In this document: positions 30,113 through 37,219 of the stretch, one piece after another
Layout of the letters: each line of letters opens with the position of its first letter
How positions within the stretch are numbered: position 1 is the stretch's first letter
Origin: Gemmatimonadaceae bacterium
GTDB taxonomy: Bacteria > Gemmatimonadota > Gemmatimonadetes > Gemmatimonadales > Gemmatimonadaceae
Assembly (NCBI GenBank): GCA_035606695.1
Contig: DATNEW010000050.1
Span: forward strand, 186,001-250,000
Direction of reading: 5' to 3'
Length of the DNA: 64,000 nt
The notes under the pieces: model-generated
Told to the model about the DNA's origin: nothing
The model's input: the letters and a program-made list of their open reading frames with translations, nothing else
Databases searched by the model: none
Made by a program: the position numbers and the translations under genes

Positions 30113-31042
30113 CTACGGCTTGCCGAGTTGCAACAACGGCATCGCTCCGCCGGCGACCTGCGGCATCTTGCCGTCCCAGCGCTTGGCCATCTCGTACTGC
30201 ACCAGATTCGCCGTGATGCTCCGCGACAACAGATCGTTCGCCTTCGCCTGCGCTTCCGCGTTCACCAGCGTTGCCTTCGCGGAGCCCGCCGCCTTGATCG
30301 AGTCGCCCTGCGCCTGGAACGTGTTCTTCTGAAGCTCGTTCTGTGCGGTGAGCGCCTGCTGCTGCATCACGTTCTTTTGGTTGATCGCTTCGATCACCGC
30401 CGGCGGCGCGCGCAGCTCGTTGATCGTGAATTGCTTCACGACGATGCCGTACTGCGCGAGCCGCTGTGACAGCAGCAACTGCACCCGGTTCACCGCTTCG
30501 GCCTTCTTGGGGCCGATCACCGCCGCGATCTCCTCGTTGCCGATGACCTCCTGCAGCGCCTGGCGAATCGACTGCTTCACGTAGCCGTGCTGAATCGACT
30601 GAATGTCGCGGCGGAACGTCGAGTACAACGCCGGCGCCTTGTCCTGATCCAGCTCGAAGCTCATCGAGACGTCGAGCGAGAGGGGCTGTCCCTCCTGGCT
30701 GTTGACGTTGATCTCCTCGTTCGCCGGCGAGCCCTCGACCGCGTTCTTCGAGAGCACGAGCGTTTGCATATAGACCGGATATTCCTCGATGCCCGTCGTC
30801 AACGGATTCTTGAGGTGCAATCCAGGTCCGAGCGGTGTCTTGTCCACGCCGCCGCCGGCGCGGTGGATCACGATGCCGACGTAGCCGGGATTCACGTACG
30901 TGACCGTCGTCGGCAAGAGAATCAGCGCGAGCACCAACGCCGCGATGACGCCGACGATGCGACGCACCTTTCGGCCGAGCTCATTGACACTTTCAGTGCC
31001 GAGGTGCACGGAGGACAGGCGGTCACCGATCGAGCTACCCAT
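30113..31042 (-). CDS. SPFH/Band 7 (prohibitin-like) membrane protein
   Basis: 309 residues. One N-terminal transmembrane helix (about 32-52, VGVIAALVLALILLP) is followed by the SPFH domain (VNPGYVGIVIHRAGGGVDKTPLGPGLHLKNPL) and a long Ala/Gln-rich helix (about 225-285). Such proteins form large oligomers in membranes and control proteases or membrane organisation. It follows, and overlaps by eight bases, a small zinc-ribbon-like membrane protein. Confidence 0.92.
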   Translation of the reverse strand: MGSSIGDRLSSVHLGTESVNELGRKVRRIVGVIAALVLALILLPTTVTYVNPGYVGIVIHRAGGGVDKTPLGPGLHLKNPLTTGIEEYPVYMQTLVLSKNAVEGSPANEEINVNSQEGQPLSLDVSMSFELDQDKAPALYSTFRRDIQSIQHGYVKQSIRQALQEVIGNEEIAAVIGPKKAEAVNRVQLLLSQRLAQYGIVVKQFTINELRAPPAVIEAINQKNVMQQQALTAQNELQKNTFQAQGDSIKAAGSAKATLVNAEAQAKANDLLSRSITANLVQYEMAKRWDGKMPQVAGGAMPLLQLGKP

Positions 31043-31289
31043 GGACAGTCTCCTTGTAACAATCGGGGCAGATGACTTCCCCGCTGGTGAGGCGTACCAG
31101 GTCAGAATTGGCGCGCGGGCCGTGAATGGGACACACCAGCTCGGCCGCGCGATCGATTCGCCTCCGGTTCCGCGCTTGACGGACCCGAACGCCGGCTGGT
31201 GTGAAATACAAGAGCACCAAGTAGAAAAGGGCGCCCACAGCCGCGATTAACGCAGCGAACAGGACACCCTCGATGATGATTTCAGTCAT
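31035..31289 (-). CDS. Small membrane protein with C-terminal zinc-ribbon-like motif
   Basis: 84 residues: one transmembrane helix (about 8-30, GVLFAALIAAVGALFYLVLLYF), a basic linker (RQARNRRRIDRAA), then CPIHGP...VICPDC, with Cys/His spacing like a treble-clef or zinc ribbon. I do not recognise the family. The stop overlaps the SPFH start by eight bases, so the two proteins are probably made together and may interact. Confidence 0.75.
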   Translation of the reverse strand: MTEIIIEGVLFAALIAAVGALFYLVLLYFTPAGVRVRQARNRRRIDRAAELVCPIHGPRANSDLVRLTSGEVICPDCYKETVHG

Positions 31290-31435: not shown

Positions 31436-32086
31436 TCAGGCCCGCTGTGCGACGCGCGCCGTCAATAATTCCACCGCGTCGGCCGCGCTGACCGCCGTGA
31501 GGTCCGCGCCTAGCCGCGATGCGAGTTTCGCGTCGCCCGCAACCGCGAGGCCGCCGACGACGATCAACGGCATCGGCGAGACGCCGCTCTCGCGAATCGC
31601 GGCGACGGCGCCGCGCACACGCGGCAGATTCGGCCCGATCGACGCCGAGAGCGCGACGACGTCGGGACGCCGCTTCAATACCATGTCCACGAGACTCTCG
31701 ACCGGCACCGAAGCGCCGAGATAGGTCGTGTCCCATCCCTCGAGCTCGAGAAGATCGCAGACCATCCGCAGCCCGAGCTGATGCCGCTCGTCGTCGGCGC
31801 ACGCGGCAATCAACGACGGCGAGCGCGAATCACGCCAACGGTAGACGCGCTCGAACGCGCGTCCCATCGCTGCCTGCGTGATCGCCGTCGCGAGATGCTC
31901 TTCGGCAACGGTCACCTCGTTGTACTGCCAGCGTCGGCCAATCTCCTGCAGCGCGGGCTGGAAGACGTCGAGATAGAGCTCGCGCAGCGTGCGGCCGCGA
32001 TCGAGCACGCCGTCGACGAGGCGTTGCGCCGACCGTCGGTCGCCGCGCACCAGGGCCTCGAGGAAAGTCGCGGCTTCCGTCTTCAT
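31436..32086 (-). CDS. Stand-alone CarH-type cobalamin-binding photosensor protein
   Basis: 216 residues: a four-helix cap (about 1-85) and a Rossmann B12-binding domain (about 90-210). The cap has W53, E63 and H64 with exact Wx9EH spacing (WQYNEVTVAEEH), the motif linked to adenosylcobalamin light sensing in CarH. The lower-ligand motif ExHxxG is E100-R-H102-Q-L-G105. The MerR DNA-binding domain of CarH is missing and no other output domain is present. It may act through a partner, as AerR does. It is the third gene of an operon, overlapping the preceding gene by four bases. Confidence 0.88.
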   Translation of the reverse strand: MKTEAATFLEALVRGDRRSAQRLVDGVLDRGRTLRELYLDVFQPALQEIGRRWQYNEVTVAEEHLATAITQAAMGRAFERVYRWRDSRSPSLIAACADDERHQLGLRMVCDLLELEGWDTTYLGASVPVESLVDMVLKRRPDVVALSASIGPNLPRVRGAVAAIRESGVSPMPLIVVGGLAVAGDAKLASRLGADLTAVSAADAVELLTARVAQRA

Positions 32087-32481
32087 CCGCCGGCATCTGC
32101 GCTCAAGGTGGCCAAGCCGGCGTCGATGACAGTCGCGATCGCACGCGCATCCGACTCGGCATATCTGGCATGCGTTTCATCGCGCAGCAGTTCGAGGCAG
32201 CGCCGCACGTCGCGCGTCGCGACACCTCGGGCGCGCAGCATGCTGTCGAGCCAACGCACATACTGCGCGAACATGCCGGGCTGTTGCAGATCGACGGCGG
32301 GGATGAGATGCTCGATGTTGTAGTGCATGTCTTCCAGACACTTCGCGCGTCCGCGCGCGCCGTGTTTTTCCATCAACTCCGGCAGCTCGGCGTAGAGGTT
32401 CGCGGTGATCGCGCGCGCGAGACTCTCTTTGTCGTGCAGCAGGATCTCCGCGGCGCCGTGACCGTCGGCGGGCGCCGTCAT
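32083..32481 (-). CDS. Uncharacterised helical protein, partner of the B12 sensor
   Basis: 132 residues, predicted all-helical, with conserved-looking patches RGRAKCLEDMHYNIEHLIPAV and GMFAQYVRWLDSMLRARGV. I do not know a function. The ATG at 32481 overlaps the stop of the upstream monooxygenase-like gene, and its own stop overlaps the B12 protein start, each by four bases. This tight coupling suggests it works with the photosensor, perhaps as its output or as a regulatory subunit. The open frame continues upstream to 32628 but that part overlaps another gene. Confidence 0.72.
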   Translation of the reverse strand: MTAPADGHGAAEILLHDKESLARAITANLYAELPELMEKHGARGRAKCLEDMHYNIEHLIPAVDLQQPGMFAQYVRWLDSMLRARGVATRDVRRCLELLRDETHARYAESDARAIATVIDAGLATLSADAGG

Positions 32482-32792
32482 ACCAGCTCGACGCGCGAAT
32501 CCATCAGCACCTCGAACGCCTCGTGCCGCACCTGCGTCCGCGCCATGATCTCGCCGGGCTCGCGCGAATGAGACATCGCATGCGCTTCGCTTCGCATGTA
32601 GCGCGAGAACGCGTCGCGTGAATCCCACGCGGTCAGGAACGCGAATGCGGCCTCGCCGGCTTGGGGCCGAAGCAACTGCAGGTAGAGAAAGCCCGGGAAC
32701 GAATCGACGAGGCGCGAGCGCTCATGAAAATGGCGCTCTAACGCAGTCTGATCCTCGACTGGAACCGTGAGATGCGAGATGAAAACGAACAT
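32478..32792 (-). CDS. ABM-type (antibiotic biosynthesis monooxygenase fold) protein
   Basis: About 104 residues of the dimeric alpha/beta-barrel ABM fold: FVFISHLTVPVEDQTALERHF, RLVDSFPGFLYLQLLRP, AFLTAWDSRDAFSRYMRSEAHAMSH. Members include cofactor-free monooxygenases and IsdG-type heme-degrading enzymes; the exact activity is unclear. I start at the ATG at 32792, where the first beta-strand begins; an ATG at 32846 would add 18 residues. It is the first gene of the three-gene B12-sensor operon. Confidence 0.78.
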   Translation of the reverse strand: MFVFISHLTVPVEDQTALERHFHERSRLVDSFPGFLYLQLLRPQAGEAAFAFLTAWDSRDAFSRYMRSEAHAMSHSREPGEIMARTQVRHEAFEVLMDSRVELV

Positions 32793-35853: not shown

Positions 35854-37101
35854 ATGATAGACTCTACGCCGGATTCGGATTTTCTGAACGCCTCGTTCTC
35901 GCCCAACCCGCGCCCGCGCACCCCGGTGTCACCGCGCACGGTCCCCGCGCCTGAGGCCCTGGCGCAAACCGGCGAATACAGCATTTTCGGGCTCACGCGC
36001 GCCGCCGATCAAGCGGTCGTGCGCGAACGCCAGGTCGGCTTCACGCTGCTGCTGTTCGGCGTCGCGACGATCGTCGCGGTGCTGTACTCGATCGAGCGCT
36101 ACGTCTACAGCCGGCTCGTCGGCGAGCCCGTGTCGCTGCTCCGCCTCGTTCCAGGCGAGCTGGTGTTCACGTACGCGTGGGCCTTGCTCGCGCCGCTCGT
36201 CATGGCGCTGGCGCGCCGCTATCCCGTGTGGGGGCATCAGCGGGCGCGCAATTGGCTCGTGCAGGTCGCCGGCCTCGTCGGCTTCGTCGTCGTGCACATC
36301 GGGTTGTTCGCGCTCGCGTCGACGACGCTCGATCCCACCAGCGGCATCCAGTCGTTTCCGCTCGTGTTCATGCGCCTGCTCGTCGCGTGGACCGTGCTCG
36401 ACTCCGTCGTGTTTTGCATGCTCGTCGCCGTGCATCACGCGGTGATCTACTATCGCGTCTCCAAGGATCGCGCGTTGCGCGCGTCGCAGCTCGAGGCGCG
36501 CCTGGCGCAGGCGCAGCTGCAGATGCTCCGCATGCAACTGCAACCACACTTCCTCTTCAACACGCTCCACTCGATCTCCGCGCTCATGCACAAGGACGTG
36601 CGACGCGCCGACTCCATGGTCGCCGCGTTGAGCGATCTCCTGCGCATGTCCCTCCAGAACATCGGCGCGCAGGAAGTTCCGCTGCAATCCGAGTTGGAGT
36701 TTCTGCAACGCTATCTCGAGATCATGCAATTACGGTTCGGCGACCGCCTCAAGGTGTCGATCGACGTCGATCCCGAGACGCGCGATGCGCGCGTGCCGAA
36801 CCTGTTTCTGCAGCCGCTCGTCGAGAACTCCTTCCGCCACGGCTTCGGCGATCTGGGCCAGGGCTCGATCGCGATCACCGTTCGGCGCGAAGGCGACATG
36901 CTGCGCTGCGACGTCGTGGACAATGGACGTGGACTTCGCGAAGGCCACAAGGAAGGCGTGGGCCTGGCAAGCACGCGGCAGCGTCTGGCACACCTCTATG
37001 GCGAACGCCAGATGTTCGCGCTTCGTGGCGCTCCGGGCGAAGGCGTCCATGTCACGATGGCAATCCCTTTTCACCCCTTCGAACGCACGGCGGCCGACTG
37101 A
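35854..37101 (+). CDS. LytS/YehU-type sensor histidine kinase
   Basis: 415 residues. Four transmembrane helices (about 60-200) precede a short coiled coil (QLEARLAQAQLQMLRMQ) and the His_kinase domain with phospho-acceptor His232 in LQPHFLFNTLHSISALM. The ATPase part contains LFLQPLVENSFRHG and VDNGRGL. These kinases pair with LytTR regulators; the cognate gene lies 119 bases downstream. The ATG follows GTAGGGA. Confidence 0.92.
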   Translation: MIDSTPDSDFLNASFSPNPRPRTPVSPRTVPAPEALAQTGEYSIFGLTRAADQAVVRERQVGFTLLLFGVATIVAVLYSIERYVYSRLVGEPVSLLRLVPGELVFTYAWALLAPLVMALARRYPVWGHQRARNWLVQVAGLVGFVVVHIGLFALASTTLDPTSGIQSFPLVFMRLLVAWTVLDSVVFCMLVAVHHAVIYYRVSKDRALRASQLEARLAQAQLQMLRMQLQPHFLFNTLHSISALMHKDVRRADSMVAALSDLLRMSLQNIGAQEVPLQSELEFLQRYLEIMQLRFGDRLKVSIDVDPETRDARVPNLFLQPLVENSFRHGFGDLGQGSIAITVRREGDMLRCDVVDNGRGLREGHKEGVGLASTRQRLAHLYGERQMFALRGAPGEGVHVTMAIPFHPFERTAAD

Positions 37102-37219
37102 TGAGCCCTCTCGGCGGAATTCCGAGTGAAGGCGCGAAGCGCCGCAATGAGGAACAATCCATGAGCCCTCTCGGCGGAATTCCGAGTGAAGGCGCGAAGC
37201 GCCGCAATGAGGAACCATC
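37101..37219 (+). repeat. 60-bp direct tandem duplication
   Basis: Two copies of a 60-bp unit are identical over about 55 bases. Each contains the palindromes CGGAATTCCG-like (GGCGGAATTCCG) and GGCGCGAAGCGCC. The sequence looks like a dispersed intergenic repeat that landed between two genes and then duplicated. Confidence 0.93.

Follow-up and report, generated by a model that had tools for sequence, protein, structure and literature searches.

What does a cobalamin-binding protein with the residues of a CarH-type photosensor, and no DNA-binding domain, do in an operon with two small proteins? The operon lies on the minus strand of the 64,000-nt stretch analysed here (the window), on contig C50 of a 5.9 Mb, 99% complete genome, and the relatives to which we compare it are other Gemmatimonadota. 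A sequence-only reading had described a B12-binding photosensor gene overlapping with genes for an "unknown helical protein" and an ABM-fold protein, and had suggested a light-sensing module with a new output, comparable in principle to AerR. Judging from homology, the operon probably encodes a photocobilin that is split into two subunits, together with a helper protein.

Open reading frame calls place the ABM gene first, followed by the globin gene and the B12 gene, and both junctions are indeed 4-bp ATGA overlaps (Table 1). The Pfam scores of the operon proteins are far above chance (B12-binding, 1.7e-18; B12-binding_2, 5.4e-18; ABM, 8.3e-12), and a Pfam scan confirmed that the B12 protein has no MerR or other DNA-binding domain.

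Table 1. Genes, key residues and junctions of the operon (window coordinates).
Feature	Position	Strand	Evidence or detail
B12-binding photosensor subunit, 216 aa	31436..32086	-	Pfam PF02607+PF02310; PDB photocobilins 8j2w/8j2x
B12 subunit, W53	31930-31928	-	
B12 subunit, E63-H64	31900-31895	-	
B12 subunit, E100-G105	31789-31772	-	
Bilin-binding globin subunit (predicted), 132 aa	32083..32481	-	Pfam Phycobilisome; PDB 8j2x/8j2w C-terminal domain
Globin, C48	32340-32338	-	
Globin, D51	32331-32329	-	
Globin, W77	32253-32251	-	
ABM-fold protein, 104 aa, candidate bilin source (proposed non-canonical heme oxygenase)	32478..32792	-	Pfam ABM; S6, H7, Y65, H75, H90 invariant
ATGA overlap, globin stop / B12 start	32083..32086	-	4 bp
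ATGA overlap, ABM stop / globin start	32478..32481	-	4 bp

The Wx9EH (W53, E63, H64) and ExHxxG (E100, H102, G105) motifs are present in the B12 protein as the earlier reading described them, and these residues, together with Q54, are invariant in 13 homologues. Among PDB entries, the best matches are the photocobilins 8j2w/8j2x (1e-26 with the single sequence, 1e-36 with a profile), well ahead of CarH structures (1e-10 to 1e-13) and of AerR (7te2, 4.5e-4). The protein has the CarH-type B12 domain of photocobilins, with W-x9-EH and D/ExHxxG, and shares this cobalamin photosensor domain with CarH and LitR; unlike them, it lacks both the MerR domain and the His that follows the motif Trp (H132 in TtCarH). 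Because Q54, the residue found in SasPcob and in all 13 homologues, occupies this position, the bis-His light state of many, though not all, CarH proteins (PMC9304148) is unexpected here. The light state of SasPcob is water-ligated rather than bis-His (PMC10979010), and we therefore expect SasPcob-type photochemistry from the B12 subunit, as far as its sequence can predict it. Of the signature described for a light-responsive CBD, namely GxxW, EH, GxxH and GxxxP (PMC11796333), the protein has GxxW (G50-W53), EH and GxxxP (G124-P128); it has D99-E-R-H102 in place of GxxH, and the full four-element signature is thus incomplete. The host genome has a cobalamin adenosyltransferase gene and, away from the operon, one for a CarH homologue of the MerR type in which W-x9-EH and ExHxxG are both present (L002, G000:C23:63571-64044).

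The "unknown helical protein" is a phycobilisome-like globin of the photocobilin type. It passes the Pfam cut-off for Phycobilisome (2.1e-6), and its best PDB matches are the C-terminal biliverdin-binding domain of SasPcob (8j2x/8j2w, 1.8e-5) followed by allophycocyanin; a profile of 18 relatives matches photocobilin at 5e-13 and allophycocyanin at 1e-5. An AlphaFold model (pLDDT 93.5) has five helices in a phycobiliprotein fold (TM about 0.8), with phycobiliproteins and smURFP as its nearest folds. When aligned with the PDB entry and numbered according to PMC10979010, D51 corresponds to Asp270 and W77 to Trp296, the two residues with which SasPcob mainly contacts biliverdin (PMC10979010), and both are invariant in 18 of 18 globins. 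By these matches the second gene encodes a globin-like homologue of the photocobilin biliverdin domain, Asp and Trp contacts included. C48, where SasPcob has Thr, lies three residues before D51 (CLED); since this compares with the Cys motifs CXRD of phycobiliproteins, CXQD of photoglobins and RGMC of BBAG-2 (PMC10979010; PMC10151467), covalent attachment of a bilin through C48 is possible.

Because the globin is homologous to the biliverdin domain and keeps D51 and W77, we read the B12 and globin genes as a photocobilin made in two subunits, a reading supported by the fact that both proteins match the same solved photocobilins on two corresponding domains. The B12 and globin domains of SasPcob and AbDPcob (Zhang et al., 2024; PMC10979010) are homologous to those of the operon, and SasPcob shares the W, the EH, the lower His, the Gln after the motif Trp and the biliverdin-contacting Asp and Trp. 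Photocobilins are fused, however, whereas the operon has two separate genes, an ABM partner and no output domain; with its domains on separate genes that overlap by 4 bp rather than in one polypeptide, it would work like a photocobilin without being a strict member of the group. The BBAG-2 clusters (Rockwell et al., 2023; PMC10151467) likewise have a B12 gene next to a separate gene for a bilin-binding globin, and the R-x-x-C of the window globin (RAKC) is comparable to the RGMC of BBAG-2. BBAG-2 globins pair with a separate B12 protein mostly in Myxococcales, generally in genomes that carry heme oxygenase, and often with a pre-2 bilin reductase (PMC10151467); the operon differs in having an ABM protein, in having a kinase downstream in relatives, and in that neither a heme oxygenase nor a bilin reductase (PF05996) was found in the host genome.

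Our search for related loci covered 395 Gemmatimonadota genomes and, in a scan that required exact peptide seeds, genome contigs from about 85,000 species. Closely related globin, ABM and B12 genes occur in the same order in six of the 395 genomes and in two further loci from the scan, such that the operon is conserved in seven Gemmatimonadota loci besides the window. The operon's ABM proteins form a clade whose members share 67-78% identity with that of the window, separated by a clear gap from the phylum's other ABM proteins (<=39%), and the scan for this clade, with its exact peptide seeds, returned Gemmatimonadota only. A B12 sensor gene adjoins in 22 of the 23 distinct loci of the clade: eight have ABM-globin-B12, five have ABM-B12 without a linked globin, and nine have the globin-B12 order of the window as one fused protein followed by ABM; one locus lacks B12 (G346, L074). 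Between split and fused systems the ABM proteins are about 71% identical and the globins 28% identical, and the ABM protein is, on sequence identity, the most conserved part of the operon. In a tree of B12 domains, in which many forks are weakly supported, split and globin-less forms group together; the globin-less forms are nested among the split ones, which suggests that the linked globin was lost repeatedly. Four further genomes from the host's genus had neither the globin nor the ABM gene. Several related loci also encode a conserved protein of 222 aa that has a tract rich in arginine at its N terminus, a likely membrane segment and no Pfam match (L029, 15848-16516; homologues in L030, L074-L077, L079, L080 and L082), located after the kinase, or after ABM in L074 and after B12 in L079.

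Where would the bilin come from? With the globin profile, bilin-type globins were detected in 29 of the 395 genomes, including 15 of 15 genomes with the ABM clade versus 14 of 380 others (Fisher 1.5e-19, uncorrected for relatedness). Heme oxygenase was found in one of the 15 ABM genomes versus six of the 14 other globin genomes (p=0.035, uncorrected for phylogeny); because the genome search missed a seventh gene among the latter (G158, 50 bits in hmmscan), absence calls are not airtight, including that for the host genome, in which the same search found no heme oxygenase. No phytochrome was found in the host genome. Four of the ABM genomes have no globin gene linked to ABM but carry, at another site, a second, divergent type of globin, which we infer binds bilin. 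This second family is about 210 aa long and has the motif FPYY..RYG.RGR.F..SDS.WL (L118, L122, L123, L124 and L126), with no Pfam match for L123, the member that was searched. Globins of this second type also occur as fusions with a canonical heme oxygenase domain, in the two checked proteins L121 (G295) and L125 (G191) and probably in G063:C13:117511-118458, and the two are adjacent genes in G169 and G158 (L127, L128); these could be self-sufficient bilin-making biliproteins.

The distribution of ABM and heme oxygenase, together with a fold closest to TT1380 and MhuD, leads us to infer that the ABM protein replaces canonical heme oxygenase. It has the ferredoxin-like fold of IsdG-type heme oxygenases, and it shares with IsdG, MhuD and HmuQ the dimeric alpha+beta barrel and the position of the axial His (H75). 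A point against the inference is that IsdG-type enzymes yield mycobilin or staphylobilin and not biliverdin. Unlike those enzymes, the ABM protein is encoded in a photosensor operon, has additional invariant histidines (H7 and H90), and has S6 for Asn7 and Y65 for Trp66 throughout its clade, whereas the phylum's other ABM proteins retain N, W and H. With two of the three residues of the Asn/Trp/His catalytic triad changed, it is not a standard IsdG enzyme, and the step from ABM to heme oxygenase is left less firm. Indeed, Asn7 is reported to be critical in IsdG (PMC6018153). Tyr at position 66 appears to be tolerated for heme binding, since a crystal structure of W66Y IsdI with heme exists (4fnh). 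On the sequence evidence, bilin production by the ABM protein is plausible without being probable.

An alternative that concerns this step only, and that we take seriously while stopping short of calling it probable, is that the ABM protein does not degrade heme: it might carry bilin or heme, assist in assembly, or be an enzyme under light control with a different substrate, and the bilin would come from elsewhere. The clade-wide substitutions point this way, as does the inclusion among ABM folds of cofactor-free oxygenases such as SnoaB, and of LsrG, and the ABM gene stays with B12 in the five loci without a linked globin. Against it, the closest solved relatives of known function are heme degraders (MhuD), the axial His is retained, the W66Y IsdI structure contains heme, and ABM co-occurs strictly with bilin-type globins while nearly excluding canonical heme oxygenase.

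The suggestion of a new output fared less well in the window than among relatives. A histidine kinase gene directly follows B12 in seven of the eight split loci, the window being the exception, and in four of the five globin-less loci (11 of 13 in total), such that the suggestion is backed only indirectly. The linked kinases have a short N-terminal domain without a Pfam match (PAS-like by eye) and a HisKA-HATPase core. That N-terminal domain had no match in the host genome, although the same query recovers all seven control loci, and a full-length query, the kinase from the nearest relative, matched the host genome only through the kinase core, in about 60 kinases. With neither a kinase gene next to B12 nor the N-terminal domain elsewhere in the host genome, the window sensor is an orphan without its usual kinase. 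Directly downstream of the operon (window 31035-31289) is a gene for an 84-aa membrane protein with a C-terminal motif that resembles a zinc ribbon by eye, and beyond it one for an SPFH-type protein (also by eye). Elsewhere, between genes for a LytS-like kinase and a LytTR-type regulator, the window contains two near-identical elements of roughly 55 bp (ATGAGCCCTCTCGGCGGAATTCCG...GAAGGCGCGAAGCGCCGCAATGAGGAAC; 37100-37215), the core of which has eight genomic copies, often paired.

Among the features that count against a split photocobilin are the five loci that keep ABM and B12 without a linked globin, the D99-E-R-H102 in place of GxxH, and the lack of an output gene in the window. The first would also fit a sensor of green light that uses B12 only, with the globin playing a structural or allosteric role and binding little or no bilin; indeed, AbDPcob binds only about 20% biliverdin yet senses light through B12 (PMC10979010). 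We consider this unlikely, since the Asp is lost in AbPcob whereas the window globin keeps both D51 and W77, and since, wherever the operon lacks a globin gene in the genomes sampled, one is encoded at an unlinked site. Less likely again is an anti-repressor of the AerR type that targets a transcription factor: what the earlier comparison with AerR got right is the stand-alone B12 domain without a DNA-binding domain, but in sequence the protein matches AerR far less well than the photocobilins (4.5e-4 versus 1e-36) and the partners in relatives are histidine kinases. Direct DNA binding in the manner of CarH can be dismissed for want of a DNA-binding domain. A corrinoid shuttle for a methyltransferase system would share the two-domain B12 architecture, and MtbC/MtgC-type proteins are among the weaker matches; we rejected this reading as extremely improbable on its motifs and partners, given the invariant photosensor Wx9EH, the absence of an adjacent methyltransferase gene and the phycobilin-type globin partner.

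For the split photocobilin that we favour, we propose the following mechanism. The B12 protein would bind AdoCbl through H102, with W53 and E63-H64 holding both the adenosyl group and the dimer of the dark state, and cleavage of the Co-C bond by light would change the assembly. The globin would bind a biliverdin-like bilin through D51 and W77, possibly also covalently through C48, and would dock on the B12 subunit, such that red light absorbed by the bilin could also trigger B12 photolysis. The most likely role of the ABM protein in this scheme would be to make the bilin from heme, in place of canonical heme oxygenase. In relatives, the signal would pass to the histidine kinase whose gene comes immediately after B12; in the host genome, where this kinase is missing, the sensor would have to act on an unlinked partner.

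The pairing of a globin with a separate B12 protein is already known from BBAG-2 (Rockwell et al., 2023). A literature search for the ABM/globin/B12 combination, which did not extend to the gene neighbours in the photoglobin paper, returned nothing beyond the works cited here; as far as that search shows, the new elements are an ABM protein as partner, the way it co-occurs with bilin-type globins while nearly excluding heme oxygenase, the Gemmatimonadota split form with conserved biliverdin contacts, and the kinase neighbour. A more far-reaching proposal, which we offer as tentative and rather doubtful, is that an ABM enzyme with a rewired site (S6/Y65/H75) makes the chromophore, possibly a bilin other than biliverdin, instead of heme oxygenase. 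A single light-sensing cassette, coupled in translation, would then combine synthesis of the chromophore with the bilin and B12 subunits, and in relatives it would feed a histidine kinase. If the ABM protein does make a bilin, the heme-degrading fold of IsdG and MhuD, which the papers cited here describe for heme and iron use, would be linked to light sensing. A split photocobilin would extend this family to a two-subunit form, with the bilin and B12 chromophores on separate, swappable proteins that may be useful for red/green optogenetics, and the histidine kinase would be a candidate output for photocobilins that stand alone, the function of which has been called less clear.
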